Source of the DNA: Burkholderiales bacterium
GTDB lineage: Bacteria > Pseudomonadota > Gammaproteobacteria > Burkholderiales > Burkholderiaceae_C
DNA: 37,938 bases
Reading direction: 5' to 3'
NCBI GenBank assembly: GCA_025360385.1
Contig: JANYCG010000042.1
Coordinates: forward strand, 1-37,938
The position numbers and the translations under genes are program-made. The notes beneath the pieces were generated by a model. That model searched no databases. It was not told where the DNA came from and worked only from the letters and a program-made list of their open reading frames with translations. Shown one piece after another: positions 10,474-37,938 of the stretch; the first letter of the stretch is position 1, and each line of letters opens with the position of its first letter.

Positions 10474-11025
10474 TTAACGGTAGGCAATTTCGGCACGCCG
10501 ATTTTTAGCCAAAGATGCTTCGTCCCCGCCCTCTGCAGCAGGTTTTTCTTTGCCAAAACTGACTGCTTCAACCTGAGCATCGTTGACGCCCAGCAATGCC
10601 AAAGCCTGTTTGACCGCCTCGGCCCGCTTTTGCCCAAGCGCCAAGTTGTACTCTCTCCCGCCTCTTTCATCCGTGTGCCCCTCTATCGTAAATTTACGGG
10701 TTTTTTCAGTTTTCAGGTACCGCGCTTGGGTTTCGATGATGCTTTGAAATTCGGGGTTGATGGCAAAACTGTCATAGTCAAAATAGATCACCCTGGCACC
10801 CGCTGGCATGGCCGTGTCCGAAGCGCCCTTGTTCAAGTTGACTGGCTCCACCCTGGTAGTCCCCGCGCCACCGGTAGTCACACTGCCGCCATCCCTTGGG
10901 GTGTTTGCACTTTGCTGAACCGGCGCACCAGTCCGGTCTTCAACCGGTGTGTTGTCAAGTTTGACTGCGGAACTGCACCCAGCCAACAGCGCGACCAAAC
11001 ACCATGTCAATACATTTTTCGTCAT
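10474..11025 (-). CDS. pal: Peptidoglycan-associated outer-membrane lipoprotein Pal
   Basis: Pal anchors the outer membrane to peptidoglycan and works with TolB. The product (183 residues) has a lipoprotein signal with lipobox LLAGC. A flexible Gly/Thr-rich linker follows, then an OmpA-C domain with VIYFDYDSFAI, IEGHTDERGGREYNLALGQ (diaminopimelate-binding Asp and Arg) and RRAEIAYR at the C-terminus. The ATG at 11025 is chosen over a preceding in-frame TTG because GGAGC lies 6 nt upstream of it. It follows tolB by 62 bp. Confidence 0.97.
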   Translation of the reverse strand: MTKNVLTWCLVALLAGCSSAVKLDNTPVEDRTGAPVQQSANTPRDGGSVTTGGAGTTRVEPVNLNKGASDTAMPAGARVIYFDYDSFAINPEFQSIIETQARYLKTEKTRKFTIEGHTDERGGREYNLALGQKRAEAVKQALALLGVNDAQVEAVSFGKEKPAAEGGDEASLAKNRRAEIAYR

Positions 11026-11087
11026 CAAATTGCTCCAGACCTGAAATTTATTTAACCAACGCAGCCGATTTTCCTAGACCCTGATTT

Positions 11088-12356
11088 TCACTGCTTTTGA
11101 AAGGGACCCCAGTCAGGCTCGCGCAAGTTGCCCCCCTGCCCGGCCAATTTGGCCTTTATTTTCCCATCGACAGTCGTAGTCATCAATGATTCTTTGCCCT
11201 GAACGACGGTTGCATAAACGACCAAACGACTATTTGGCGCAAAACTAGGCCGCTCGTCGGTGCTGGTCTCGGTGATGGCGCTGACTGCACCACTCGCCAA
11301 CTCCATGACGTGGAGCTTGAAGGCCCCGCTGACACGGGAAATGTAGGCGAGCCATCGGCCATCAGGACTGAGGGCAGGTGAAATGTTGTAACTGCCAGTA
11401 AACGTTACACGCTCTGGGCTGGATCCGGTTGCAGCCATGCGATAAATCTGTGGCGACCCACCACGATCACTCACAAAATAGATCGTTTTTCCATCGGGTG
11501 AAAATCTGGGTTCTGTGTCAATGCTGGGTGACTGGGCCAGACGTTTGGGCTCGCCGCCCATGGCATCGATGACATACAGTTGTGAGCCACCATCCCGGCT
11601 CAAGGTCACCGCAAGAGAACGACCATCCGGCGACCAGGCGGGCGCACTATTGGAGCCTTTGAAATTGGCCACCAGGCGCCTTTTGCCACTTGAAATGTCG
11701 TGGACATAAACCACTGGTTTGCGTGACTCAAAAGACACATACGCCAGTTGTGCGCCGGTCGGCGACCAGGCCGGAGAAATGATGGGTTCCGGACTGGCCA
11801 GGGCCGCTTGCGCATTTTCGCCATCAGCGTCGGCCACCCACAAATTGAACCGGCCCGCATTTTTGGTGACATAGGAGATGCGGGTCGAAAAAACCCCGCG
11901 CTCTCCTGTCAGCTTTTCATAGACAGAATCGGCGACGCGATGGGCTGCAAGACGAAAATCACCCGGCGCAACCGCGTAACTCTGACCTCCCAAGTCCTGG
12001 TTTCGCACGACATCCCACAAACGATACCGGATGTCGAACCGACCGTCAGCAAGTTTCGTCACGCTTCCGGAAACCAGTGAATCAGCGCCTTTTTGCCGCC
12101 AGGAAGCCATGTCAGGCCTGACAACTTCGTCAATGGCACCGCCTGAATTGTCAACGCCGCGAAACTGACCGCTGCGTTCCAGATCTGCCTGCACAATGGC
12201 ACCAATTTTTTGCGACACCCCCTCTTCGCCACGAAAATTAGCGATCGCTATGGGCGCTTGTGTTAGGCCAACGCCAGAGACTTCGACGCGGAACTGGGCA
12301 TTGGCCCCAAAATACATCAGTGCCATTAACACTGCGCAAAAAAATCGTTTCATCAT
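11088..12356 (-). CDS. tolB: Tol-Pal system beta-propeller protein TolB
   Basis: TolB is a periplasmic protein with an N-terminal alpha/beta domain and a six-bladed propeller, which shuttles between Pal and TolA. The 422-residue product has a signal peptide (hydrophobic FFCAVLMALMYFGANA) and then FRVEVSGVG. Repeated propeller signatures follow (ISPAWSPTG, SAPAWSPDGRSLAV, TEPRFSPDGKTIYFVSDRGG, ISPALSPDGRWLAYIS) and the terminal REPDWGPF. Either of two adjacent ATG codons (12356, 12353) may start it. The upstream neighbour is a glycosyltransferase 7 bp away, not tolA; tolQ, tolR and tolA are absent from the window. Confidence 0.97.
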   Translation of the reverse strand: MMKRFFCAVLMALMYFGANAQFRVEVSGVGLTQAPIAIANFRGEEGVSQKIGAIVQADLERSGQFRGVDNSGGAIDEVVRPDMASWRQKGADSLVSGSVTKLADGRFDIRYRLWDVVRNQDLGGQSYAVAPGDFRLAAHRVADSVYEKLTGERGVFSTRISYVTKNAGRFNLWVADADGENAQAALASPEPIISPAWSPTGAQLAYVSFESRKPVVYVHDISSGKRRLVANFKGSNSAPAWSPDGRSLAVTLSRDGGSQLYVIDAMGGEPKRLAQSPSIDTEPRFSPDGKTIYFVSDRGGSPQIYRMAATGSSPERVTFTGSYNISPALSPDGRWLAYISRVSGAFKLHVMELASGAVSAITETSTDERPSFAPNSRLVVYATVVQGKESLMTTTVDGKIKAKLAGQGGNLREPDWGPFQKQ

Positions 12357-12363
12357 TTCTGCA

Positions 12364-13218
12364 TTATCTCAGGCGGACTATGACAAGGTCGTCATTTTCA
12401 CGCACCGTCGAGTAGCCTTCACTCGCCCGAACTATTTTCGACGTGGTTCGTTCTGCCACGACTGCCGCATTGCGTGACACTTGGTTTCGTTTGGCCTCTT
12501 TGTGCCAAAGATGAAATACCTCGGTTGCACAGTAGCCGTTTTTTCGATTGACACCCGCATGAAAAAGACGCTGAACAAAATCAGCATCTTCATGGCCCCA
12601 ACCGACAAAAGACTCATCGAATCCGTCTACCCGCTCAAAATCGGACTTCCACACGCCCATATTGCAGCTGCGAATGCCTTTCCAGGAAAATCGATGCTGG
12701 GTTCGCAATTGCCAATCGGGCAAGCGCAGCAGCCCTAAAAATTTGTTGGCATCGCCCAAACCATATCGCGCAATCCAGTAGAACAATGATCGGCTATCGA
12801 CCCGTTCGACGCCTGATACGACTTTTTGGGTGAGCTGGTCAGACAGGAGCACCCGGCTGCCATTCACAAAAAAGCCAGTTTGGGAAAGCGCTTTGTGTTG
12901 TGCAATGAAATCTCGGTCTGGAATGCAGTCGCCGTCAAGAAAAATCAAGTAATCGCTTCCGGCCATTTCGGCGCCACGATTGCGCACCCTTGAAGCGGTG
13001 AATCCGATATCTGGATGCCAGACGTGACAAACCTGCAAAGAACGGCCGACAGATGAATTGCGAATTCTGCTGCGATGCAAATCCGAAGAGCCATCATCGG
13101 CGACGATCACCTCGAAATTCCGGTCCGTCTGGCGCAACAACCCATCCAACACAGCGAGCAGCGCTTCACTTCGGTTGTAGGTGGTGATCACAACGGATAC
13201 AGGCTTGAAAGATTCCAT
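12364..13218 (-). CDS. Family 2 glycosyltransferase with a galactosyltransferase-like C-terminal motif
   Basis: This 284-residue cytoplasmic GT-A enzyme is presumably for LPS core or surface glycan. It shows the GT2 start SVVITTYNRSEALLAVLDGL, VIVADDGSSD, the nucleotide-sugar DxD-like stretch LIFLDGDCIPDRDF, and SCNMGVWKSDFERVDGFDES followed by GWGHEDADF. That last pair matches the Glyco_transf_7C motif of bacterial chondroitin-synthase-like enzymes. Sugar specificity is unknown. It ends 7 bp before tolB and would head the tolB-pal-cpoB transcript. It diverges from the WaaE-like gene across a 67-bp gap. Confidence 0.85.
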   Translation of the reverse strand: MESFKPVSVVITTYNRSEALLAVLDGLLRQTDRNFEVIVADDGSSDLHRSRIRNSSVGRSLQVCHVWHPDIGFTASRVRNRGAEMAGSDYLIFLDGDCIPDRDFIAQHKALSQTGFFVNGSRVLLSDQLTQKVVSGVERVDSRSLFYWIARYGLGDANKFLGLLRLPDWQLRTQHRFSWKGIRSCNMGVWKSDFERVDGFDESFVGWGHEDADFVQRLFHAGVNRKNGYCATEVFHLWHKEAKRNQVSRNAAVVAERTTSKIVRASEGYSTVRENDDLVIVRLR

Positions 13219-13285
13219 TTTGAACTAGACTACCAACAAGTTACCCCATCATCCCGCGCAGAAAGCCGCCGAATACTAACACCCG
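13219..13285. promoter_or_regulatory. Divergent promoter region between two glycosyltransferase genes
   Basis: This 67-bp AT-richer gap is the only room for promoters of both the leftward glycosyltransferase-tolB unit and the rightward msbA operon. No consensus -10/-35 pair or Shine-Dalgarno is convincing by eye on either strand; its role is inferred from gene orientation. Confidence 0.4.
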
Positions 13286-14056
13286 ATGCGCAAGATTTCT
13301 GTCTACATCATTGCCTTCAACGAAGCCGAAAAAGTTGCCGCTGCCATTCAAAGTGTGCGTTGGGCAGACGAAATCATAGTGGCTGATTCCTGGAGTACCG
13401 ATGGCACACCTGACATCGCGGCGCAATTGGGTGCAAAAATCATCCAGGTTCCCTTCAAAGGTTTTGGCGATTTGCGCAACCAGGCGGTAGCGGCCTGTTC
13501 GCATGAATGGATATTCAGTCTGGACGCTGACGAACGCTGCACGCCCGAAGTCGCACTTGAAGTGCGCGGCTTGGCCGACAATCCCAACTCGCTCGATGCC
13601 TACTGGGTCCCGCGGCGAAATTTTTTCATGGGGCGCTGGATCCGGCATTCTGGTTGGTATCCAAATTTTCGGCAGCCACAGCTGTTTCGAAAAGGCTCTA
13701 TGCAGTATGACTTGAAAGAAGTCCACGAAAATTTCATCATGGCATCAGTGGGACCGCTGGGAACATTGAAGAACGCAATTTGGCAATTCCCGTTTAAAAA
13801 CATGAGCGAAGTTCTGCACAAGGCAAATCGTTATTCCACTCTTGGTGCGCAACGAATATCGGAGCACAAACTGACGATGGCATCGGCATTGATTCACGGA
13901 CTTTGGTCATTCTTCAAACATTATGTTTTTAAACTGGGCATTTTGGACGGCTGGGCAGGGTTGGTCATTGCCATTGGGAATTTTGAGGGTACGTTTTACC
14001 GCTATGTGAAGGCCATCGAGATCCAGAAAGGTGCCCAATGGCAGGCACCCAAATGA
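13286..14056 (+). CDS. WaaE/KdtX-like family 2 glycosyltransferase (LPS inner core type)
   Basis: The 256-residue product matches the short GT2 group that includes WaaE/KdtX, which adds glucose (beta-1,4) to inner-core heptose in some enterobacteria. Visible features are SVYIIAFNEAEKVAAAIQSV, EIIVADSWSTDGT, the DxD motif FSLDADER, WVPRRNFFMGRWIRHSGWYP and RQPQLFRKGSMQY. The C-terminal amphipathic part (FFKHYVFKLGILDGWAGLVI) is a typical membrane-association segment. It is the first gene of the rightward LPS operon, 36 bp upstream of msbA. The acceptor and sugar in this organism are inferred only from family. Confidence 0.85.
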   Translation: MRKISVYIIAFNEAEKVAAAIQSVRWADEIIVADSWSTDGTPDIAAQLGAKIIQVPFKGFGDLRNQAVAACSHEWIFSLDADERCTPEVALEVRGLADNPNSLDAYWVPRRNFFMGRWIRHSGWYPNFRQPQLFRKGSMQYDLKEVHENFIMASVGPLGTLKNAIWQFPFKNMSEVLHKANRYSTLGAQRISEHKLTMASALIHGLWSFFKHYVFKLGILDGWAGLVIAIGNFEGTFYRYVKAIEIQKGAQWQAPK

Positions 14057-14092
14057 CCCCTGTGGCGAGCCCCGCAGATTTGATCTCGATTG

Positions 14093-15838
14093 ATGAATAA
14101 GTCGCCGCCCCAGAACAACCGAGAGATTTATGTGCGCCTGCTGGCTTACCTCAGGCCATATTGGCGCGTATTTTTGCTGGCTTTGCTTTGCATGGTTGCC
14201 GTCGCATTGACCGAACCTGTGTTCCCGGCAATGATGAAACTCTTGCTGGATCGCGGATTTAAAACCGACGACCAACGCATGGTCTGGATGATTCCTTGCG
14301 GCATTGTTCTTTTTTTTGCGCTCCGAAGCGTATTCGTTTTTTGTGGCGGTTATTTGATGATGTGGCTGTCCAGCAGAATGGTCACCGATATTCGCCGCCA
14401 AATGTTCGCCAAAATGTTGCTTTTGCCTAGCAGCGCCTACTTGGAGCAATCTTCTGGGAAATTGATTTCCCGGCTTGTCTATGACGTGAGCAATTTGTCA
14501 GAAGCGGCCACCAGCGTTTTTGTTTCTCTTGTGCGTGAATCAATTACGGCTGCCGCCTTGATGGCTTACCTGCTTTACCTTGATTGGAAACTCACCCTCG
14601 TTTCCCTAGGCATAGGCCCCGTCATTGCGGTGGTCGTGAAGGCGTTTAGTCGGCGTATGCGGGCTGCCAGCCGAATGAGTTTTGAATCTATCCGCCTTAT
14701 TTCTCACGCAATCGAAGAAACCGCCAACGCACAAAAAGTGGTCAAAATTTTTGCCGGCCAATCCCAGCTAAAGCATCGATTTTGGAAGAACACAGAGCAA
14801 TTCCGGCGTGCACAAATGAAAGAGGCCATCCCGGCTTCAGCGGTGACTCCAATTACCCACGTCGCCGCAGCCGTTGCAATTGCAATCATCACTTTTTTGG
14901 CGCTCAGTCAAACCACTGGACAAGCGGGTGCCACCGCGGGTGGTTTTGTGTCATTTGTCACCGCCCTACTCATGCTGATTGCGCCCATCAAACAATTGAC
15001 GTCGATCAACACGACGCTGCAACGTGCCTTGGCCGCATCTGAGAGTGTGTTCGCCCTGCTCGACGCACCGGTTGAACTCGACACAGGCACTCACCACCTG
15101 GGACGGCTGGATGGGCACATTGAATTTTCCAATGTTAGCTTTGCTTACCCCGGTTCCGACCGGCCCGCACTGTCTGGTATCAGCTTCAATGTGAAGGCCG
15201 GGAAAACCGTCGCACTGGTAGGCGCCTCAGGTGGCGGCAAGACGACTTTGGGAGCGTTGATTCCCCGTCTTCATGGCGTGACCGGGGGAACTATTTTTCT
15301 TGATGGCATCAATATCGCTGATGCAAGCCTATCAAGCTTGAGAGGCAATATTGCTTTGGTGAGCCAAGACATTGTGTTGTTCAACGACACCCTGGAGGCC
15401 AATATAGCATTTGGCGCCAACGCGTCCAGCACCAGGGAGCAGGTGATTGAAGCGGCAAAAGCGGCCAATGCATGGGAGTTCATTGAACAGCTGCCCGATG
15501 GCCTGGATACGTTTATCGGCGAGAACGGCAGCCGGCTTTCGGGTGGACAACGCCAAAGAATAGCCATTGCGCGTGCCATTCTGAAAAATGCGCCTATCCT
15601 GATTTTGGATGAAGCGACCTCCGCGCTAGACACGGAATCGGAGCGCCTAGTTCAGGCGGCGCTTTCAGCACTGATGAAAAACAGAACGACACTGGTCATC
15701 GCCCATCGCCTAACCACTATCGAGCGGGCGGATCAAATTTTGGTGCTTGACCAGGGCCGGATCGTGGAGTCTGGCACCCACGACGAACTCACTGTAAAGG
15801 GCGGCTATTACGCGGGCTTGAGCCGCTTGCAGGCATGA
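14093..15838 (+). CDS. msbA: Lipid A export ABC transporter, ATP-binding/permease protein MsbA
   Basis: MsbA is a homodimeric inner-membrane flippase for lipid A-core. The 581-residue product has an N-terminal six-helix transmembrane domain (about residues 20-310). Its ATPase domain has Walker A GASGGGKTT (377-385), a Q-loop in VSQDIVLFND, signature RLSGGQRQRIAIARAIL, Walker B ILILDEATSALD and H-loop VIAHRLTTI. It is the usual MsbA length. An in-frame TTG at 14090 precedes the ATG at 14093; the ATG is preferred. The C-terminus overlaps the deacetylase start by 4 bp (ATGA). The setting among core glycosyltransferases supports lipid A-core as substrate. Confidence 0.93.
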   Translation: MNKSPPQNNREIYVRLLAYLRPYWRVFLLALLCMVAVALTEPVFPAMMKLLLDRGFKTDDQRMVWMIPCGIVLFFALRSVFVFCGGYLMMWLSSRMVTDIRRQMFAKMLLLPSSAYLEQSSGKLISRLVYDVSNLSEAATSVFVSLVRESITAAALMAYLLYLDWKLTLVSLGIGPVIAVVVKAFSRRMRAASRMSFESIRLISHAIEETANAQKVVKIFAGQSQLKHRFWKNTEQFRRAQMKEAIPASAVTPITHVAAAVAIAIITFLALSQTTGQAGATAGGFVSFVTALLMLIAPIKQLTSINTTLQRALAASESVFALLDAPVELDTGTHHLGRLDGHIEFSNVSFAYPGSDRPALSGISFNVKAGKTVALVGASGGGKTTLGALIPRLHGVTGGTIFLDGINIADASLSSLRGNIALVSQDIVLFNDTLEANIAFGANASSTREQVIEAAKAANAWEFIEQLPDGLDTFIGENGSRLSGGQRQRIAIARAILKNAPILILDEATSALDTESERLVQAALSALMKNRTTLVIAHRLTTIERADQILVLDQGRIVESGTHDELTVKGGYYAGLSRLQA

Positions 15839-16554
15839 ACATCCCGATCTTGATGTACCACCAGATCGACGCGCCGCCCAGGCGTGGCACGCCGCTTCGC
15901 GGCCTTGTGGTGTCTCCGGCCTCCTTTGCGCGGCAGATGTCCTGGTTGAAATTGCTCGGGTACCAGGGTTTGTCGATGACTGGCCTTGAACCCTATTTAC
16001 AGGGTGAGCGCATCGGGCGTGTCGTTGGAATAACCTTCGACGATGGATACCAAAATAACATCCAACACGCATTGCCAATCCTTTTGAAAAATCGGTTCAC
16101 AGCGACCTGCTACGGGGTAAGCAGCATGATCGGAGGCACCAATAGCTGGGATTTGAATTTGGGGGTTAGTCAAAAACCCTTGATGAACGCTGGCGAATGG
16201 GGCCGATGGCGCGATAGCGGAATGGACATTGGCTCCCACACCTGCATCCATGCTGATCTTCTGCAGGTTGGGCCTGACAGCGCCTGTGCGCAGATAGCGG
16301 ACTCGAAACTGGATCTGGAGCGGGAATTTCGTTGCGAAGTAAGGCATTTTTGCTACCCCTATGGGAGATTTGATCCGGTGCACTGCGAGATGGTGCAGCG
16401 CGCGGGATATGCCACGGCAACTACAACCCGGCGTGGCCGGGTGGCGCCTGGCAGCGACCCTTACACATTGCGTCGCATAATGGTGGCCCAGGCCACTACG
16501 CTGGCACACTTTACTTTGAAAATCCTGACAGCCTATGAAGACCGGCGCGGCTGA
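15835..16554 (+). CDS. Polysaccharide deacetylase (CE4/NodB fold)
   Basis: This is a predicted metal-dependent deacetylase of N-acetyl sugars. The 239-residue product shows PILMYHQI at the N-terminus, the catalytic/metal motif ITFDDGYQNN (Asp69, Asp70), the metal-binding SHTCIHADL (His135, His139), and FCYPYGRFDP near the end of the NodB domain. No signal peptide is apparent, so it may act on a lipid-linked or LPS intermediate on the cytoplasmic face; this is inference. It overlaps msbA by ATGA and is followed by a methyltransferase one base after its stop, so it belongs to the same operon. Confidence 0.87.
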   Translation: MNIPILMYHQIDAPPRRGTPLRGLVVSPASFARQMSWLKLLGYQGLSMTGLEPYLQGERIGRVVGITFDDGYQNNIQHALPILLKNRFTATCYGVSSMIGGTNSWDLNLGVSQKPLMNAGEWGRWRDSGMDIGSHTCIHADLLQVGPDSACAQIADSKLDLEREFRCEVRHFCYPYGRFDPVHCEMVQRAGYATATTTRRGRVAPGSDPYTLRRIMVAQATTLAHFTLKILTAYEDRRG

Positions 16555-16555
16555 G

Positions 16556-17245
16556 ATGGGCTCCCACCTTTACTCCGACAAAGACGCCGGGTATTTCGCC
16601 TGTGCGAGAACCGAGATTGAATCCCTCCTGCCCAAAGCAAATGGCAAGCCGCTGAGAGCGCTTGAGATTGGTTGTTCGGGGGGCCACACGCTTGAATGGC
16701 TCAAGAGAACCGGCACCATTGGATGGAGTGCTGGCGTTGAGCCTTTTGCCGAAGTTTGCCAAGCTGACCGTTTGATCGACCAGTTTTTCAAACTCAACAT
16801 TGAACAGGCCTTGCCTGATCTGCCACCCGCCTCAATCGACCTTCTTTTGTGTTTGGATGTACTCGAACATTTGGTAGACCCGTGGCAAGCCGTACACAAG
16901 CTGGATGCTTTGCTGAAGCCGGGCGGCCAGATGATCATCAGCCTACCTAACATCCGCAACTATCACATCCTGGTCGATTTGGCATTTGGCGGAAAATTCA
17001 ACTATGGCGATTCTGGAATTCTTGACAAAACCCATCTTCGGTTTTTTACCCGCCAGACCGCCATTGAATTGGCGCAGTGCGCAGGGGCAACGGTGACCCA
17101 CGTCATGGGAACCGAAGTGGGCAGGTGGCAGAAACGCATGCTGACTGCGCTGGGCCTAGGCGACTTGTTGGCCAAGCAATTTTTGTTGTCGGCGATGAAA
17201 CCATCCCCCACAAGGGCTGCGGCGGTTGTTGCGCCACCGACCTGA
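16556..17245 (+). CDS. Class I SAM-dependent methyltransferase
   Basis: The product (229 residues from ATG 16556) has a Rossmann methyltransferase domain: ALEIGCSGGHTLEWL (motif I, SAM binding), IDLLLCLDVLEHLVDPWQAV (motif II-like) and LLKPGGQMIISLPN (post-motif). It resembles the sugar/O-antigen methyltransferases grouped as Methyltransf_12/23. An in-frame ATG at 16535 would overlap the deacetylase by 20 bp; the ATG one base after the deacetylase stop is preferred, and MGSHLYSDKDAGYF looks like a natural start. The acceptor is unknown. Its operon position suggests methylation of a glycan residue. Confidence 0.8.
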   Translation: MGSHLYSDKDAGYFACARTEIESLLPKANGKPLRALEIGCSGGHTLEWLKRTGTIGWSAGVEPFAEVCQADRLIDQFFKLNIEQALPDLPPASIDLLLCLDVLEHLVDPWQAVHKLDALLKPGGQMIISLPNIRNYHILVDLAFGGKFNYGDSGILDKTHLRFFTRQTAIELAQCAGATVTHVMGTEVGRWQKRMLTALGLGDLLAKQFLLSAMKPSPTRAAAVVAPPT

Positions 17246-17254
17246 CACCCTGCC

Positions 17255-18142
17255 ATGGATTCCTTTGTCCTGTATTGCAAAAGTTACCGAGTCGATGTCA
17301 AGCGCGTCGTCCGTTTGGCCGCGACAGTCAAGAAATTCAATGTTGAGGGATTGCGATTTTTTGTGTCGGTGCCAAAGGCTGACCTGCCCCTGTTTGAACA
17401 ATTCCTGCAAGGCCACGACGTCGAACTCCTGTCCGATGAATCCATTGTTCTGGCGAATCCCGGAATTGATCCCCTGCGGCTCGCCAGTCTTGCCGGCAAT
17501 GTGTCTCAGCAAATTGTCAAATCAGAATTCTGGCGGCTGGGGCTCTGCCGCACCTACCTTTGCCTTGACTCAGATTGCTTTTTTATACGCGCGTTCAGAG
17601 CTTCAGATTTCATCGACCCGCAAGGCACGCCTTACACCATCATGGATGAAGGACATGATTTGTTGCTTTCGGCCCTTTCGCTCGGAAAAATGAGTGTTTT
17701 ACAAAATTTCCAGCGTGAGTCCGACGAGTTAAAGCAGGCGTTCGGCCGAACTGGAAAAACTTACAATTTTGGTCCAAATTGCCCAGTATGGGACCAGCGC
17801 GTGTGGTCCAGTCTTGACGAAAAAATGCTCAAGCCGCAACAGCTTTCGTTTCTGGATTTGATTCTGAAATCACCCAATGAAATGCGCTGGTACGGCGAGG
17901 CTTTACTGCGGTTCAAGGCAGTAGACCTGCTGCCGTCACAGCCGTTCTTCAAAATGTACCATTACGCATGGCAATTGAAAAAAGACCAACAGGCAGGCAT
18001 CGGCATCAGGGAACTGGCGCGTTTGTACAGCGGTGTTGTCTATCAGTCAGCCTGGGAGCGCGAAATGGATTGGCCCAGCGAAGGCGGAAGCTGGCTGTCA
18101 AAAACTGCTCGACGCGCCAGAGCCAGGCTTGGAAGAACCTGA
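17255..18142 (+). CDS. DUF6492-like protein, possible glycosyltransferase
   Basis: This 295-residue protein has no confidently known function. It begins DSFVLYCKSYRVDVKRVVRL and contains LRFFVSVPKADLPLFEQF, a core IVKSEFWRLGLCRTYLCLDS followed by DCF (a DxD-like metal/nucleotide-sugar motif), YNFGPNCPVWDQRVWSSL and HYAWQL. The pattern of a short alpha/beta start, YLCLDSDCFFI and a WxxR/W-rich second half resembles GT-A-type transferases annotated as DUF6492; this is from recollection, not a search. It is the last gene of the rightward operon. Its final 45 bp overlap the end of the convergent waaL-like gene. Confidence 0.6.
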   Translation: MDSFVLYCKSYRVDVKRVVRLAATVKKFNVEGLRFFVSVPKADLPLFEQFLQGHDVELLSDESIVLANPGIDPLRLASLAGNVSQQIVKSEFWRLGLCRTYLCLDSDCFFIRAFRASDFIDPQGTPYTIMDEGHDLLLSALSLGKMSVLQNFQRESDELKQAFGRTGKTYNFGPNCPVWDQRVWSSLDEKMLKPQQLSFLDLILKSPNEMRWYGEALLRFKAVDLLPSQPFFKMYHYAWQLKKDQQAGIGIRELARLYSGVVYQSAWEREMDWPSEGGSWLSKTARRARARLGRT

Positions 18143-19492
18143 CCGAGGGTCAGCATGGGCTGCTCGTTTAAGGGCGACCAGCGCATAACTCAGCACAAAG
18201 CCTTGCATTTCAAGCATATGGTCACGAAAGACCGTATCTGTAAAACCTCGAAGCATCCAGAAACTGCTTAAGGCCACCAGCACCAACGCCCATTCGTTGG
18301 CAACGCCGGTTATTAGGATGGCTTTCAGGCCTTGCGCCGCAAAGTAGGCCAGCACCCATAGATACAGCAACGCTCCCAGCCAGCCCAGGGCCAACACGGT
18401 GTCAAGCCATCCGTTGTGGGTGTGTGCAACTTTAAGCACGGGGGCCGGACACTCCCGCGCCAGTACATGCTGGAAAGCCTGCCGGCTTCCATCGCTGCCC
18501 CAAGGATACTTCTGGGCAAGTGAATAGCCCGCACGCAGCACCATGACACGGATTGCATCGCCATTGCGAACGCTGTCGATGATCTTCGGCGCTTGATCCC
18601 CAAATTCCGCCACGACCTGCGCCTCAATGACGGCGGGTCCTGTACAAAGGACGCTCAGGGCATTGCCATAAAACCCCGCCTCGAGTTCCGACGTCATGGT
18701 GCGCCAGCGGGCATCCTGTTGCGCCGCGATCGCCACTGCACCAAATGAGATTACAAGCAGCAAGCTCAGTCCGACACTTAGATAGCCCCGCTTTCTCCCC
18801 GAAGGAGAAAGCAGCGAAGCACAAAAAACCAAAGCCCCGCCAACCCCGCAAAAAATCTGGCCTGCACGGGAATGAGCGAAGACTGTGCTGGCCAACGAAG
18901 CCAGGATCAAACCCAAAGCCATCAAGCGAATTCCAGGGCGTTTTACGGCAATTGCCACGCATGCAAAAATCACGACTTGCCCGGCTGCGTACCCAAGGTC
19001 GGCATGATGCGTCTCCCGCCCCCAATAGCCCCAAGGCAGCCCGCCAGCCCGCAAGGCTTGGGCAAAGAAAAGATACAAATGGATAGCTATCGGAGCAGCA
19101 CTCACCACACCCAAAAACAAAACGCTGCCGTATTTTTTATTTCCGAATACCGCTGCTGTCCCCGCACCGGCAAGCATCGCCAGAAGACCTCTTGCCCATT
19201 GCCCTTCGAGGCTTTCAAGCGCCAGCATAGGCGAACTGGAGAACACAGGAAAAAGCAACAGGTAGGCGGCCCAAACCAGAAATGGCAGGGGCATGATTTT
19301 CAGACTGCTGACTGCAGGGCGCCACTGCCGCCAATGCCACGCCAAGCCCACAAGAAGGGTAGCAAGTGCAAGGTTTCTCAAGGCCATCGTTTTCGCCATC
19401 GGCAATACGGCCAGGTAGATTGCAGCGGCTGTACCAATCACGGTGGCAACGCCTGCCGACACCCGGCGGCTTGAGTCCATCCCTGTTGTCAT
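18098..19492 (-). CDS. O-antigen ligase family protein (WaaL/Wzy-C type)
   Basis: This inner-membrane protein of 464 residues has many hydrophobic helices and a large periplasmic loop (about residues 220-360). The loop contains AHTHNGWLDTVLALG, the conserved HxHN motif of O-antigen ligases that join undecaprenyl-linked glycan to lipid A-core. An earlier in-frame start (19525) would overlap the upstream gene by 37 bp; the ATG at 19492 overlaps its stop as ATGA and is preferred. WaaL and Wzy polymerases share this domain, but the position among core transferases favours a ligase. Its last 45 bp run antisense to the end of the DUF6492 gene. Confidence 0.8.
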   Translation of the reverse strand: MTTGMDSSRRVSAGVATVIGTAAAIYLAVLPMAKTMALRNLALATLLVGLAWHWRQWRPAVSSLKIMPLPFLVWAAYLLLFPVFSSSPMLALESLEGQWARGLLAMLAGAGTAAVFGNKKYGSVLFLGVVSAAPIAIHLYLFFAQALRAGGLPWGYWGRETHHADLGYAAGQVVIFACVAIAVKRPGIRLMALGLILASLASTVFAHSRAGQIFCGVGGALVFCASLLSPSGRKRGYLSVGLSLLLVISFGAVAIAAQQDARWRTMTSELEAGFYGNALSVLCTGPAVIEAQVVAEFGDQAPKIIDSVRNGDAIRVMVLRAGYSLAQKYPWGSDGSRQAFQHVLARECPAPVLKVAHTHNGWLDTVLALGWLGALLYLWVLAYFAAQGLKAILITGVANEWALVLVALSSFWMLRGFTDTVFRDHMLEMQGFVLSYALVALKRAAHADPRSGSSKPGSGASSSF

Positions 19493-20445
19493 GACAAGCG
19501 CAGCTTCGCCGTCTTTCGACGCCACAGCATTTTCTTGAGCAGGCTTCTCGGCACGTCATCCGTCAACGCGCCAATTCTCAACGCCCGCCGTGCCGCCAGT
19601 GACTCAGTCCAACGCCCAGCCTTTTCGAGCGCCTGGTAGGTTTTTAAAATTTCAAGGTTTCCAAGCCGGGTATGTTCGAGCCGCGCCTCGGGATGCTTGG
19701 ATAAAAGCAATTTTTTGTTGCGCTTCATCAAGGCCCTGGCCTCGGCGCTCGCTTTGAAGGTAGCGCTTCCCGCATGGAACACAAAAACATCTTCTGAAAT
19801 CATCTGCCGGTATCCTGCTTTCACAAGCCGCAAGCTGAAGTCGAAATCTTCGTAGTAACCCAAACCAAATTCCGGGTCAAGCCCGCCGAGCTCGGTCCAG
19901 ACGCAGCGGCGAATGGCGATGCAAAAAAAATCACACCGGTACGTTGGCATCAGCTCATGGGCCGGGTTCTGGTGCAAGCACTTGCCGATTTGAAGCCATT
20001 CATCTGGCGTCGCACCCGGTTTCCACAAGCGCTGGCCATTGCCGGCAGCGTTGGTGACTGGCCCAATCATGGCAACTTCGTCCGGGGCGTTTTGCAAAAC
20101 GCCAAGCAAGGCATCAATTGCCCGGTCAGGAAATACCGTGTCGTTGTTGACCAACAATAACCAGTCGCCGCTGGCGTGTTCCGCTGCCCAATTCATGCCG
20201 CCGGAAAAACCCCGGTTGATATCGCCCAGCAAGCATCTGACTTGCGGCCGACTGGCACACCATTGCGCCGTTTTTTCGGCAGAACCGTCCAGAGAACCGT
20301 TGTCCAGGACCAGAATTTCAACGTCCGGATGGTGCCCCCAGGGCATCAGTGAATTCAGGCAGACACGGGTCGTGGCATCGAAATTTCGAAAGCCCAAAAC
20401 CACCAGCGAAACCTTAACCTGAGTCACCTGAGTCACCTGAGTCAC
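19489..20445 (-). CDS. Family 2 glycosyltransferase, rhamnosyltransferase-like
   Basis: This 318-residue GT-A enzyme has VSLVVLGFRNFDATTRVCLN, EILVLDNGSLDGSAE, RGFSGGMNWAAEHASGDWLL followed by LVNNDT (DxD equivalent), CDFFCIAIRRCVWTELGGLD and YYEDFDFSLRLVKAGY. This is the pattern of RfbC/WbbL-like GT2 transferases. The start is a GTG at 20445, within a run of three 9-bp repeats that encode MTQVTQVTQV; GTG codons at 20436 and 20427 are also possible starts. It overlaps the upstream glycosyltransferase stop as GTGA and the downstream waaL start as ATGA. Donor and acceptor sugars are unknown. Confidence 0.86.
   Translation of the reverse strand: MTQVTQVTQVKVSLVVLGFRNFDATTRVCLNSLMPWGHHPDVEILVLDNGSLDGSAEKTAQWCASRPQVRCLLGDINRGFSGGMNWAAEHASGDWLLLVNNDTVFPDRAIDALLGVLQNAPDEVAMIGPVTNAAGNGQRLWKPGATPDEWLQIGKCLHQNPAHELMPTYRCDFFCIAIRRCVWTELGGLDPEFGLGYYEDFDFSLRLVKAGYRQMISEDVFVFHAGSATFKASAEARALMKRNKKLLLSKHPEARLEHTRLGNLEILKTYQALEKAGRWTESLAARRALRIGALTDDVPRSLLKKMLWRRKTAKLRLS
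20418..20444. repeat. Three tandem 9-bp units across a stop/start overlap
   Basis: Three exact CCTGAGTCA units lie at the junction of two glycosyltransferase genes. On the coding (minus) strand each GTGACTCAG-phase unit carries a GTG in the frame of the downstream gene and a TGA in the frame of the upstream gene, so the translational-coupling signal is present three times. Copy-number change by slippage would keep the downstream frame. Confidence 0.85.
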
Positions 20446-21779
20446 TTGCGGCCCTGGGGCAATTGGTTTACCCAGGTGATTACTTTGTTGACTGCCGATT
20501 CAACCGTGTAGGCGCTCGACTTTCCGTTGTCCGGCAAGCCAGAGGTGCGCCACTGGAAATAAAGCATGTCAAGTGCCGTCGCTAGCTGATTTGCAGGCAA
20601 TTCGCCACTGTTCATTTCTGCGTTCGAAAAAATTGCCACATGCCCTTGAAAGCGAACCATGTCTGCCATTTGCGGGTTGTCATGCACGACAGCCACGATT
20701 GGCCTTTGCATCCACAGGTATTCGTAGAGTTTGGACGGGATGTATTCAGAACACATAGCGTCTTCGCCATGCAACAACAACAACACATCGACCGACCGCA
20801 TTTTATGAAGTATTTGCTCTCTTCCACTTAAACCTGACACGGCATCCGCTTCAACCCGCTCATGGTGATGCACACAGAGCCCAACTGCCGACTTTGCAAC
20901 CAGATCTGATGAAATCATGTCAAGCGGTCCGCCGTAAACATGCAATTCAAGGTTTCTCAGCAAATCCGGGCTGCCCGCGACCATGTGTTCCAAAGCACCA
21001 ATGACAGGTGCCAAATTCCGGGTTACTGACAAGGAGCCAAAATGGCCGATGACAAATTTTTCGCCCGGGCGATACGGCGGGAGAACCACGAACGGCCGGT
21101 CAACACCTGGCAGCATCATTTTGCCGCGTTCAGCACGTTGTGGGTGGCGCTTCATCGCACTGGCCAAGGCCTGGTCGGTGAACCAGATGGCCACATCGGC
21201 ACCGGCACAAATTCTGCGTTCAATCTCTGCCTGCAAAGTCTGCTGTGGTGCAGAGGGAACCGTGCCTGGCGCCACCATCGGATCGTGGACTTCAGCCAAC
21301 CAGGGAGTTCCGGTCGCCTTCTTGAGCGCATCGCCCGCCCAATGGGCCGCAAATGCTCCTCCCGTCGAATAAATCAAGTCGAACGGCCTGTGCCGCGCCA
21401 ATGAACGCCCCTTGAGATAAGCGCTGAGCCACCAGGACCAGGAGCTTTCGACCGGACGCAGAATTTTCTCCAGCAGCATGAACGGCAGCAGCAGGAACGA
21501 CACCAAAGTCATCGTCAAACGATAACGCAGGCCGCTGCCCCATCGTCTGCGCAACACATGGCGCAATTCAAACCGGAAACCCGCAGGCCCCATCGGCCAC
21601 AACTGATGGTGTTCTAGCGATTTGTCCGGCGTGCCAGAAACGCCGCTCAACACCACGACCTCGATCCCTGCTGCCCGCAAATGGGGAAGCTTGTCCGTGA
21701 TGGTCTGGCTCGCGGCCCGGCCATCCATATTGAAGGCGTGGGCCAGGACGAGCCAGCGTTGGCCAGTCTTCAGCGCCAT
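20442..21779 (-). CDS. GT-B fold glycosyltransferase (GT4-like)
   Basis: This 445-residue protein has features of the two-domain GT-B group. The N-terminal part has WLVLAHAFNMDGRAASQTI and a stretch FDLIYSTGGAFAAHWAGDAL. A membrane-associating hydrophobic/basic segment lies near residues 88-115 (LTMTLVSFLLLPFMLLEKIL). The C-terminal domain has KFVIGHFGSLSVTRNLAPVI and SKLYEYLWMQRPIVAVVHDN, the usual acidic/sugar-binding region. The substrate is not known. It starts directly after the stop of the next upstream gene (TAAATG) and overlaps the following gene as GTGA, so four glycan genes are tightly coupled. Confidence 0.78.
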   Translation of the reverse strand: MALKTGQRWLVLAHAFNMDGRAASQTITDKLPHLRAAGIEVVVLSGVSGTPDKSLEHHQLWPMGPAGFRFELRHVLRRRWGSGLRYRLTMTLVSFLLLPFMLLEKILRPVESSWSWWLSAYLKGRSLARHRPFDLIYSTGGAFAAHWAGDALKKATGTPWLAEVHDPMVAPGTVPSAPQQTLQAEIERRICAGADVAIWFTDQALASAMKRHPQRAERGKMMLPGVDRPFVVLPPYRPGEKFVIGHFGSLSVTRNLAPVIGALEHMVAGSPDLLRNLELHVYGGPLDMISSDLVAKSAVGLCVHHHERVEADAVSGLSGREQILHKMRSVDVLLLLHGEDAMCSEYIPSKLYEYLWMQRPIVAVVHDNPQMADMVRFQGHVAIFSNAEMNSGELPANQLATALDMLYFQWRTSGLPDNGKSSAYTVESAVNKVITWVNQLPQGRK

Positions 21780-31700: not shown

Positions 31701-32969
<1,269 letters not shown>

Positions 32970-33034: not shown

Positions 33035-34282
33035 ATGACAGGGACTTTCACCACTTTACGCAATACAAACACGATCCGGGCACGGGCAGAGGCTTTGCTG
33101 GCCCGTGCTCGCGCCGGGCAGTCTGCGTTCTTCACCGTCAATGACAGTGCCATGGCTTCGGTTGCCCAAGGGGTGGCCGACACCACGCGCCAGCATTACC
33201 CCAGCCTGGAGATCCCCTACCACAGCCGCTGGCGGCATTTTGAGGCGGGTGGCCTGAACCGGCTGGCGCGTTTAAATGACGAGCTGGGCAAAGTCTCGGC
33301 CGCCAAACGGGCCCGCGCGCAGATTGACCTGGTCATCGTCAGCGTGCTGCTGGACGCCGGTGCCGGCCCTGGCTGGCGCTACTTGGACGCCCGCAGCGGC
33401 CAGACCTTCACCCGCTCCGAAGGCCTGGGTGTGGCCAGCTTCAACGCCTTCACGACCGGCCTGTTTTCCAGCAAACCGACGCAGCCCTGCCAGGCCGATT
33501 CCGCTGGTTTGCGGGCCCTCACGGCGCGGCAATTGGGTGACGCGTTTCAGGTCAGCAAAGACAATTTGCTGGTCGGCCTGGAGGGCCGCGCCGCCCTGCT
33601 TCGCCGCCTGGGCGAGGTGATGGCAGCCCAGCCCGGCGTGTTTGGCGGCGCAGGGGGGCAATGCAGGCCAGGGCGGCTGTATGACCACCTGCTGGCAGCC
33701 GCCGCATCCGACCCAGACAATACCGCTGCGCCGTCGATTGCCGCCCACGACATCCTGTCCACCTTGCTGGCGGCCTTGTCGTCCATCTGGCCCGCGCAAA
33801 ACGTCATTCAAACTGACGCTGGCCCAGTCGCATTGGGTGATTGCTGGCCGCATCCAGCCGTGCCAGGCGACGGCTGGATGCCCTTCCACAAACTCTCGCA
33901 ATGGCTGACCTACTCGTTGCTGGAGCCGTTTGAATGGGCCGGTGTGACCGTCAACGGTCTGGACGCCCTGACGGGCCTGCCCGAGTACCGCAACGGTGGC
34001 CTGTTGCTGGACGGCGGCGTGTTGCAATTCAAGCAAGCCGACCTGGCAAGCCAGACCTACCACGCAGGCGACGCGCTGATCGTCGAATGGCGCGCCCTGA
34101 CCGTCGCGCTGCTGGATGAACTGGCCCCGCTGGTGCGTGCCACCTTGGGGCTGACCGCCGCACAAATGCCGCTGGCCTGTGTGCTGGAAGGCGGCACCTG
34201 GGCCGCAGGTCGGGCGCTGGCCCAGCAATTGCGCGGTGGCTCGCCACCCTTGAATATTGAGAGCGACGGAACCGTTTTTTAA
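33035..34282 (+). CDS. urc4: URC4/urg3 family protein (DUF1688)
   Basis: Urc4 is required for uracil use as nitrogen source through the URC pathway; its exact reaction is not settled. The 415-residue product is recognisable from SLEIPYHSRWRHFEAGGLNR, VSVLLDAGAGPGWRYLDARS, GLGVASFNAFTTGLFS, DGWMPFHKLSQWLTYSLLEP and FEWAGVTVNGLDALTGLPEY, with VEWRALTVALLDELAPLVR near the end. It lies 65 bp after urc1. No clear Shine-Dalgarno precedes the ATG; a repeat-like palindrome lies just upstream. After it the pyrimidine cluster is interrupted by a restriction-modification pair before upp. Confidence 0.9.
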   Translation: MTGTFTTLRNTNTIRARAEALLARARAGQSAFFTVNDSAMASVAQGVADTTRQHYPSLEIPYHSRWRHFEAGGLNRLARLNDELGKVSAAKRARAQIDLVIVSVLLDAGAGPGWRYLDARSGQTFTRSEGLGVASFNAFTTGLFSSKPTQPCQADSAGLRALTARQLGDAFQVSKDNLLVGLEGRAALLRRLGEVMAAQPGVFGGAGGQCRPGRLYDHLLAAAASDPDNTAAPSIAAHDILSTLLAALSSIWPAQNVIQTDAGPVALGDCWPHPAVPGDGWMPFHKLSQWLTYSLLEPFEWAGVTVNGLDALTGLPEYRNGGLLLDGGVLQFKQADLASQTYHAGDALIVEWRALTVALLDELAPLVRATLGLTAAQMPLACVLEGGTWAAGRALAQQLRGGSPPLNIESDGTVF

Positions 34283-34319
34283 GCAACTGGCAGGCATCGA
34301 TTTCATTTTTTTCTACTCA

Positions 34320-34343
34320 AAGGTACCACTCTCTCTAAGGTAC
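34320..34343. promoter_or_regulatory. Repeat upstream of the methyltransferase gene, possible operator/promoter
   Basis: In the 94-bp AT-rich gap between urc4 and the methyltransferase, AAGGTAC occurs at 34320-34326 and 34337-34343 (17-bp period). The same bases also give an inverted repeat GTACC-N11-GGTAC (34323-34343). Restriction-modification genes are often autoregulated from such sites by the methyltransferase or a controller protein; no controller gene is present here. Function is a guess. Confidence 0.35.
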
Positions 34344-34376
34344 AGTGTGAGTCAACTGACGGTCGAACGACGATTT

Positions 34377-35666
34377 ATGACGCCATCTCAAACAACCAAA
34401 AAGCGCCCCGTTGGCATAGACCTTTTTGCGGGCGCTGGCGGTATGTCGCTTGGTTTCGAGCAAGCCGGCTTTGATATCGCGGCAGCCGTAGAAATTGACC
34501 CTGTCCACTGCGCCGTTCACGAATACAACTTTCCAAAAACAACGGTGATATGTGCCAGTGTTGTTGATATTTCGGGTGAAGAAATTAGAAAAAAAGCGGG
34601 TTTGGATAAAATTGATATCGACGTGGTTTTCGGAGGCGCCCCTTGCCAAGGCTTTTCACTTATCGGCAAACGTGCGCTGGATGACCCACGCAACCAACTT
34701 GTCTTTCATTTCGTCCGGATCGTCAAAGAACTACAGCCAAAATACTGTGTCTTTGAAAATGTCAAAGGCTTAACGCTTGGCAAGCATGCAAAATTCTTGC
34801 AAGAACTCATTGATGCAATTGAGGAAGCTGGTTACGACATTTTGCAGCCCTACCGAGTTTTGAACGCAGCTGACTATGGCGTGCCACAAGACCGTCATCG
34901 CCTGTTCCTGATCGGTACACGACGCAGCCTGAAAATTCCTGACTATCCTCTGCCGGTCAAACCCAGGGTTACTGTTTGGGACGCGATTGGAGATTTGCCC
35001 GATGCGGATGAATTTGCAGAGTTAAACAGCACTGACGAAGTATCCACTGCGTGGACAAGCAAATCCCGCTACGCACGCAAACTTCGCGCGCTGCAACCCG
35101 ACGCCAGCAACTTTGCTTATGAACGCAATTTCAACAAAAATTTGCTTTCGTCGAGTTTAAGAACCGAGCACAGCGCCCTTTCACGGACTCGCTTTCTTGC
35201 CACTGTCCATGGAAAGACTGAAGCGGTAAGTCGGTTTCGCAAACTCCCTCCCGACGGGCTATGCAATACCTTGCGCGCGGGTACTGACAGCGCCCGCGGC
35301 GCATTCACATCGCCACGACCCATACATCCTTTTCTGCCACGGGTCATCACCGTTCGTGAAGCCGCGCGCCTGCATTCTTACCCAGATTGGTTTCGCTTTC
35401 ACATGACCAAATGGCACGGTTTCCGTCAGATCGGCAACAGCGTTCCCCCCTTGCTGGCACGCGCCGTTGCCAGCAAAATTATCGAAGCCATGGATATCCA
35501 ACCCACGAAGCCATGGCAAGTGATTCAAACAGGCGATCCCGCGTTGTTGTCGTTCTTTATGGGTGATGCGGCTCGCTACTTTCGAGTGCCACGCAACACT
35601 ATCGCTCAGCGCATCCGCAAACCAGACTCAAACCAAATATCTCTTCTGGACGAAGCTTATGCCTGA
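34377..35666 (+). CDS. DNA (cytosine-5-)-methyltransferase of a type II restriction-modification system
   Basis: The product (429 residues from ATG 34377) has the ordered C5-methyltransferase motifs. These are I GIDLFAGAGGMSLGFEQAGF (SAM binding), IV GGAPCQGFS with catalytic Cys90, VI ENVKG (127-131), VIII DYGVPQDRHRLFLIGTR, then a variable target-recognition region, IX ITVREAARLHSYPDWF and X RQIGNSVPPLLARAV. About 45 residues follow motif X. The reading frame extends back to 34257, but that part overlaps urc4 and precedes the family start. It overlaps the endonuclease gene by 8 bp. The stretch is visibly more AT-rich than flanking pyrimidine genes, which fits horizontal acquisition. The recognition sequence cannot be read from the protein. 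Confidence 0.93.
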   Translation: MTPSQTTKKRPVGIDLFAGAGGMSLGFEQAGFDIAAAVEIDPVHCAVHEYNFPKTTVICASVVDISGEEIRKKAGLDKIDIDVVFGGAPCQGFSLIGKRALDDPRNQLVFHFVRIVKELQPKYCVFENVKGLTLGKHAKFLQELIDAIEEAGYDILQPYRVLNAADYGVPQDRHRLFLIGTRRSLKIPDYPLPVKPRVTVWDAIGDLPDADEFAELNSTDEVSTAWTSKSRYARKLRALQPDASNFAYERNFNKNLLSSSLRTEHSALSRTRFLATVHGKTEAVSRFRKLPPDGLCNTLRAGTDSARGAFTSPRPIHPFLPRVITVREAARLHSYPDWFRFHMTKWHGFRQIGNSVPPLLARAVASKIIEAMDIQPTKPWQVIQTGDPALLSFFMGDAARYFRVPRNTIAQRIRKPDSNQISLLDEAYA

Positions 35667-36480
35667 AGAAAAGTCATTGACACATTCCGGCCAACCGAAC
35701 CGGTACCAAGCCATCATTGCCCGCGTCTTCGCAGACCACTACACAAAAAAGGCGACAGAGTTTGAATTCACGCGAGATGAATTCGTTGGCATCGCGGAGC
35801 GACTCGGTATTGAATTGCCCAAAAATATCGGTGATGTTGTCTATTCTTTTCGTTACCGCAACGAACTCCCGCAAAGCATCAGAAAAACCGCCGTTGATGA
35901 CCTCGAGTGGATCATTGAGGGTGCCGGTCGCGCTCGTTACCGGTTTAAACAGGTTCAACTCAATCGAATCGTTCCCCGCGAAGAACTTCTGACCATCAAG
36001 ATCCCGGACGCTACGCCTGAAATCATTTCAGCCAACGCGCTGGGTGATGAACAGGCACTTCTGGCCAAAGTTCGCTACAACCGACTTGTCGATATTTTTT
36101 TGGGCATCACTGCTTTTTCGCTGCAAAACCATCTGCGTACCACCGTCAAGAACCTTGGTCAAATAGAGATCGACGAGGTCTATGTTGGCGTTGACCGCCA
36201 CGGGCGGCAATTTGTGGTTCCAGTTCAAGCCAAGGGCGGGACGGACAAACACGGTGTCGTTCAAACGCAGCAGGACATACTTTGCTGTGCCCAAAAATTT
36301 CCTTATTTAATCTGCAGGGCAGTTTCAGCGCAGTTCATGAGTGCAGGCCGCATCGCCATGTTTGAACTGACGGTGCAAGGTGGCGGCGTCAAAGTTGTTG
36401 ACGAAAAGCACTATCAGCTTGTGCCAGCGGCGGGTATATCGGCCGGGGATCTCCAACAGTACGCATCTTTCGGAAATTGA
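35659..36480 (+). CDS. Predicted type II restriction endonuclease partner
   Basis: This 273-residue protein starts at the ATG at 35659, overlapping the methyltransferase stop by 8 bp. The N-terminal half (about residues 20-100) looks like a small DNA-binding domain ([20 protein letters not shown], then [17 protein letters not shown]). The central part reads [20 protein letters not shown] followed by [11 protein letters not shown]. An acidic pair (Asp172/Glu173) and Gln190-Ala-Lys192 match a PD-(D/E)xK-type nuclease core with Gln in the second acidic position. The endonuclease role is inferred from this motif and the coupling to a methyltransferase; no known enzyme was recognised. The coding sequence is AT-rich like its partner. 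Confidence 0.72.
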
Positions 36481-36538
36481 ATCTTTCGGCCCAGCCCATT
36501 TCTCGCTTGCGAGTCCCATCCATACAAGATCAAACACT

Positions 36539-37168
<630 letters not shown>

Positions 37169-37189
37169 GCTGACTTTGGAACAAGCGCC

Positions 37190-37938
37190 ATGCTCGACCT
37201 GCTGATCCACAACGCCAGCCTGCCCGATGGCCGCACCCACATGGCCATCGCGGTGCAAAACGGCAAGATCGTCGAAGTCACCCAGGGCCTCAGCCCTGCG
37301 CAGGCTCCCGCGCATGAAATGGTCGACGCCCAGGGCCTGCTGGCAAGCCCGCCCTTCGTCGATGCGCACTTCCACCTTGACGGCACCTTGACGTATGGCA
37401 TGCCGCGCGTCAACCAGAGCGGCACCCTGCTTGAAGGCATCGCCCTGTGGGGCGAACTCAAGCCATCGCTGACACTGGAGGCCTTCACCGAGCGCGCCCT
37501 CACCTACTGCGACTGGGCGGTCGGCAAGGGCTTGCTGGCGATTCGTTCTCACGTTGACACGAGTGACCCGCGCCTGCTGGCCGTGCAGGCGCTGCTGCAA
37601 GTCAAGAAGCAAGTTGCCCCCTACATTGACCTGCAACTGGTGGCCTTCCCGCAAGATGGCATCTTGCGCAATGGCGGTGGAGGTGCACTGGGTGCACCGA
37701 GCGGCCTCGAAAATCTCAAACGTGCGCTGGCCATGGGGGTCGATGTGGTCGGCGGCATTCCGCACTTCGAGCGCACCATGGCCGTGGGTGCCTTAAGCGT
37801 CAAGCTGTTGTGCGAGATCGCCGCCGAACAAGGCAAGTTGGTGGACATGCACTGCGACGAGTCGGACGACCCGCATTCGCGCCATGTCGAATCGCTCGCG
37901 TTTGAAACGCAGCGCCTGGGCCTGCATGGGCGCGTCAC
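37190..37938 (+). CDS. codA: Cytosine deaminase/amidohydrolase, 3'-truncated
   Basis: CodA deaminates cytosine to uracil and ammonia. About 249 codons are present before the window ends, without a stop. The amidohydrolase metal site FVDAHFHLDGT (His60, His62) is followed by NQSGTLLEGIALWGELKPSL, IRSHVDTSDPRLLAVQALLQ, VAPYIDLQLVAFPQDGIL, GVDVVGGIPHFERT and DMHCDESDDPHSR, each matching the order in E. coli CodA. Related amidohydrolases on other heterocycles are possible, but uracil phosphoribosyltransferase next door supports cytosine. Spacing to upp (21 bp) suggests co-transcription. Confidence 0.9.
   Translation, partial: MLDLLIHNASLPDGRTHMAIAVQNGKIVEVTQGLSPAQAPAHEMVDAQGLLASPPFVDAHFHLDGTLTYGMPRVNQSGTLLEGIALWGELKPSLTLEAFTERALTYCDWAVGKGLLAIRSHVDTSDPRLLAVQALLQVKKQVAPYIDLQLVAFPQDGILRNGGGGALGAPSGLENLKRALAMGVDVVGGIPHFERTMAVGALSVKLLCEIAAEQGKLVDMHCDESDDPHSRHVESLAFETQRLGLHGRV

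Follow-up and report, generated by a model that had tools for sequence, protein, structure and literature searches.

A complete type II restriction–modification pair, acquired horizontally, has very probably been inserted into the urc4–upp gap of an ordinary pyrimidine-catabolism gene row. The pair appears to have entered this short gap carrying neither a recombinase nor a transposase gene, and uninterrupted urc4–upp junctions in related loci, a sharp compositional contrast and the patchy occurrence of its relatives carry this reading.

Gene organization of the locus

The segment at 34283–36538 of the window (the whole 37,938-nt stretch of DNA analysed here) corresponds exactly to the gap of 2256 nt between urc4, which ends at 34282, and upp, which starts at 36539. 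It contains two complete genes on the + strand, the same orientation as urc1, urc4, upp and codA. The first, designated M (34377–35666), encodes a C5-cytosine DNA methyltransferase of 429 aa, and the second, designated R (35659–36480), encodes a putative type II restriction endonuclease of 273 aa. The start codon of R lies inside the end of M with an 8-nt overlap (ATGCCTGA). M is preceded by 94 nt comprising the left junction and its leader (34283–34376, + strand, GC 0.45), and R is followed by the right junction and the upp leader (36481–36538, + strand).

On the left side, urc1 (31701–32969), a GTP cyclohydrolase II-like uracil catabolism gene, matched PF12471 (E = 3e-78) and NCBIfam NF005536/PRK07198 (783 bits), and urc4 (33035–34282), a DUF1688 gene that is present in a single copy in the genome, matched PF07958 (E = 1.8e-146). 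On the right side, upp (36539–37168) encodes a uracil phosphoribosyltransferase (TIGR01091, 281 bits) with 94% identity to Upp of the sister genome. The cytosine deaminase gene codA (37190–37938) is cut by the contig end, and its match to NF005748 (408 bits over 249 aa) is below the full-protein cut-off of 438.

The methyltransferase and the endonuclease

All of the usual catalytic motifs of M are intact (FAGAGG, GGAPCQGFS, ENVKG, QDRHRLF, and RQIGNSVPP). The protein matched PF00145 (246 bits, E = 6e-73) and the PADLOC model MTase_II (PDLC03326, 581 bits), and its relatives in the PDB include 3g7u, M.HaeIII, and M.HhaI. R matched the PADLOC model REase_II (PDLC03404, 405 bits, E = 3e-122) and had no match to any Pfam, NCBIfam or PHROG family. 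A candidate active site of R is IEID172E...VQ190AK192, in which D172, Q190, and K192 are invariant in 16 sequences and the context is typical of the PD-(D/E)XK fold.

The structure of R was modelled with AlphaFold2 using the window protein and 15 relatives from viral contigs. The model has a mean pLDDT of 85 and a predicted PD-(D/E)XK-like core. The top Foldseek matches were mostly PD-(D/E)XK nucleases (ACE1 Cas4-like, AdnA, and RecU), with DrdV, HincII, and MspI at lower ranks, and the matches were weak overall (best E = 1.6e-3, TM about 0.25). The fold matches together with the three invariant residues suggest that R is a PD-(D/E)XK endonuclease. No solved structure related to R by sequence was found, and the structure-sequence and literature searches gave no characterised close relative from which a recognition sequence could be taken.

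Judged from these features, M and R form a complete type II restriction–modification pair that is probably functional. M would methylate a specific sequence in the host DNA, and R would cut the same sequence where it is unmethylated in incoming DNA. Loss of the pair would expose the host DNA to cleavage by R, which would favour persistence of the pair.

Composition of the insert

The original prediction described a methyltransferase–endonuclease pair of AT-richer sequence between urc4 and upp, and the composition of the region agrees with this description. M and R have a GC content of 0.51 and GC3 values of 0.51 and 0.54, respectively, while the eight neighbouring genes range from 0.57 to 0.66 in GC and from 0.69 to 0.87 in GC3. 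The codon adaptation of M and R to the neighbours is 0.49, compared with 0.61–0.75 in the same eight genes. The shift in GC3 and codon use coincides with the limits of M and R, and the region is therefore not uniform in composition. A second AT-richer stretch (GC 0.50–0.57) is located at 11000–21000 of the window; it contains glycosyltransferases, an ABC exporter, a polysaccharide deacetylase, and a methyltransferase, and is probably a surface-polysaccharide cluster.

The empty site in related loci

The gene row was compared in eight other genomes with urc4, identified in a search for relatives, and in 80 loci from named genomes, on each of which urc1, urc4, upp, and codA were placed. In all 85 loci that have both genes (two genomes are counted twice), upp comes immediately after urc4, and the distance between the two ranges from −1 to 172 nt (median 30). 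Neither M nor R is present at the urc4–upp junction of any of these 85 loci, which belong to Burkholderiales, Actinobacteria, Alphaproteobacteria, and others. Three further loci lack upp: two end shortly past urc4 and one (L093) continues with other sequence, and none of them has M or R.

The most direct comparison is with the sister genome (G001), the only other genome of the genus, where the order is HerA–urc1–urc4–upp and only 27 nt separate the urc4 stop from the upp start. The alignment of the window to this empty site diverges after TTTTTTAAGCA, about 3 nt beyond the urc4 stop and within TAAGCA. Weak similarity to the sister's 27-nt leader returns over approximately the final 29 nt upstream of upp. 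From the points at which the alignment breaks off and weakly resumes, the right end of the insert is probably near 36510, and the insert would span roughly from 34286 to 36510, as sequence cleanly added between two genes.

Insertion of the pair between urc4 and upp, as originally proposed, is thus strongly supported: the junction is uninterrupted in the sister genome and throughout the 85 loci, and the cassette was not seen at this position in any genus examined, distant ones included. Taken together, the empty sites, the GC3 contrast and the patchy occurrence of related pairs (see below) indicate that M and R were acquired horizontally and inserted here.

The proposed ancestral operon was only partly borne out. 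The adjacency of urc4 and upp holds, while urc1–urc4–upp–codA is not the usual arrangement, since a transporter commonly separates upp from codA. The usual order in the family is HerA–urc1–urc4–upp–BMP/ABC transporter–codA, and BMP-type ABC transporter genes occupy this position in many Comamonadaceae-type loci as well as in the sister genome. Direct adjacency of upp and codA was found in five loci besides the window and is absent from the nearest relative. In the window, codA follows upp after 21 nt without the transporter genes (36539–37938), and the best BMP matches elsewhere in the genome have 37% and 34% identity. The missing transporter means that the window differs from its sister in this respect in addition to the gain of M and R.

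The sister genome has a different module in its own gene row. Its BMP and ABC transporter genes are separated by a YhaV–PrlF-like toxin–antitoxin pair in operon orientation (contig C34, L011:6571–7457), which is present in no other urc locus fetched. YhaV was identified by a Pfam match, whereas the PrlF-like antitoxin was assigned from its position alone. Each of the two genomes of the genus has a separate addiction-type module at a different place in the pyrimidine gene row, which, with n = 2, may be a coincidence.

Distribution and mobility of related pairs

Relatives of R are rare and scattered, with counts of 6 in 399 genomes of the order and 7 in 251 of the family, the genome of the window included. 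They are also found on 22 viral contigs and on 65 plasmid records, 57 of which are mobilizable, mostly plasmids of 4–6 kb from Klebsiella and Salmonella; none was found in sequenced phages of the INPHARED set. M and R travel as a unit. In all related loci examined the order is M then R, and the overlap is exactly 8 nt in 15 of 18 pairs.

The pair occurs once in the genome of the window. The sister genome carries a related pair with 75% identity in R at an unrelated locus, where an IS240-family transposase gene lies upstream of it (contig C85, L159:5281–7414), so that the pairs in the two genomes of the genus occupy different sites. In line with this second copy, the pair may have been acquired by an ancestor of the genus and then moved within the genome.

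Junctions and route of entry

The absence of a transposase and of an obvious target duplication, noted in the original prediction, was confirmed. The urc4–upp gap contains no transposase gene, no inverted repeat is visible flanking the pair, and the longest word common to both junctions is 6 nt, without repetition of the urc4 end. A long direct target repeat (about 100 bp) around the pair is also absent. No integrase, relaxase or phage genes are linked to the pair in the window, the flanks being urc1–urc4 and upp–codA.

Three candidate traces were tried and rejected. The sequence AAGCAACTGGCAGGCAT at the left junction matches, in 16/17 nt, the end of an integrase gene that neighbours R in a viral locus (L106), but shuffled sequences scored equally in the same set, and the resemblance is attributed to chance. 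Local alignment of the sequence upstream of M to vsr ends was no better than that of shuffles (p about 0.13–0.48). The direct repeat AAGGTAC, which occurs twice upstream of M with a spacing of 18 nt, is missing in the other loci searched, and a 7-nt repeat is unsurprising in 94 nt.

These traces bear on the possibility that the pair is what remains of a larger integrative element or prophage, in which vsr–M–R lay beside an integrase and was reduced to two genes after integration. Many relatives are indeed organized in this way: vsr lies directly upstream of M in about 20 of them, and integrase or relaxase genes adjoin several on phages and integrative elements. In one relative (G316, L115:8095–8245), the vsr upstream of M is internally deleted, with its start (DPQRRSWLMSRVKSKNT) joined to its end (GWKVLAVWQCE). 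In the window, however, no vsr is present at this position, the resemblances to vsr and integrase at the two junctions do not exceed chance, and the upp leader seems almost whole, with little space left for a decayed element. We therefore regard such a reduction as unlikely, though worth keeping in view. The genome of the window has, at another place (G000:C53:18377–19856), a further C5 methyltransferase gene whose immediate upstream neighbour is a Vsr-family match containing a single in-frame TAG.

An assembly artefact that joined the pair in from another replicon is very improbable; the genome is a draft of 337 contigs with 1.7% contamination and the composition of the pair is unlike that of the host, but both flanks belong to one locus, urc4 is single-copy, the pair occurs once, and a chance join at both sides with breakpoints exactly in the urc4–upp gap is hardly to be expected. 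Still less credible is an ancestral place of the pair in the operon with loss elsewhere, which its tight packing and operon-like orientation might suggest, and which is refuted for the sampled genomes by the 85 loci without it and further opposed by its sharply different composition and by the related pairs at other sites, including that of the sister.

For insertion of the pair by itself, the default route that remains would be illegitimate recombination, given that no transposase, inverted repeat, target duplication, integrase remnant or vsr remnant was found.

Expression

A simple pattern scan from urc1 to upp found no sigma-70-like promoter or terminator, such scans being weak in this genome type. 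Hairpins and terminators were also sought at both junctions by folding, which was no better than in shuffles. Because all of the genes are on the same strand and the scan gave no terminator or promoter, co-transcription of M and R with the urc operon is plausible. The urc promoter would then probably drive the pair at least partly, and upp would rely on read-through across it.

Related pairs lie on the same strand as host genes in two other genomes. In G595 (L161:6661–9626), the pair is placed between an ABC ATPase gene and trpC, all on the same strand, and the stop of R overlaps the start codon of trpC by 8 nt (ATGTCTGA), as in the overlap of M and R. In G020, the pair adjoins radA in the same orientation. 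Same-genus relatives of both genomes have no such pair at the corresponding sites. These cases, few in number and picked after the fact, suggest that placement beside host genes on the same strand is a habit of the pair. A bolder reading, which we consider doubtful and put forward only as speculation, is that in Comamonadaceae chromosomes the family consists of promoter-poor "operon guests", naked same-strand cassettes beside host genes that use host transcription. If true, restriction would be wired to a metabolic operon.

Comparison with known systems and implications

Kobayashi and colleagues have described restriction–modification units whose movement is not tied to a mobile element and in some cases comes with target duplications (review: PMC3874152). 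The window resembles these cases in having a complete, horizontally acquired pair in a regular chromosomal position without a transposase or integrase. It differs in the traces of insertion, since the target duplications of those cases are either short and accompanied by imperfect inverted repeats, or long (about 100 bp), and nothing of either kind is visible here. Restriction–modification genes are carried by many vehicles (PMC3031569), and PaeR7I, from the same source, is an example of such genes relocated to a new chromosomal site; the relocated PaeR7I genes are linked to IS copies, whereas the pair in the window has no IS at either end.

The plasmid pairs of PDLC03326 and PDLC03404, on small mobilizable plasmids of Klebsiella and Salmonella and on plasmids of Citrobacter braakii and Paracoccus, have the same gene order as the pair in the window, and the Citrobacter and Paracoccus copies share the 8-nt overlap. 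Their identity to the pair in the window is mostly 55–62% in R and about 60% in M. They are borne on plasmids, in Paracoccus with vsr upstream, while the pair in the window is chromosomal, lacks vsr and lies inside a metabolic gene row.

Naked insertion of restriction–modification genes has already been described, and the window adds a clean example to this known phenomenon. It provides a clear before-and-after case of a complete pair entering a metabolic gene row alone, and can be used to study the movement of such genes when no recombinase accompanies them, and the safe expression of a nuclease that is new to its host. If M and R are transcribed with the urc genes, defence would be coupled to pyrimidine supply, and upp expression would require transcription to pass through a foreign cassette.
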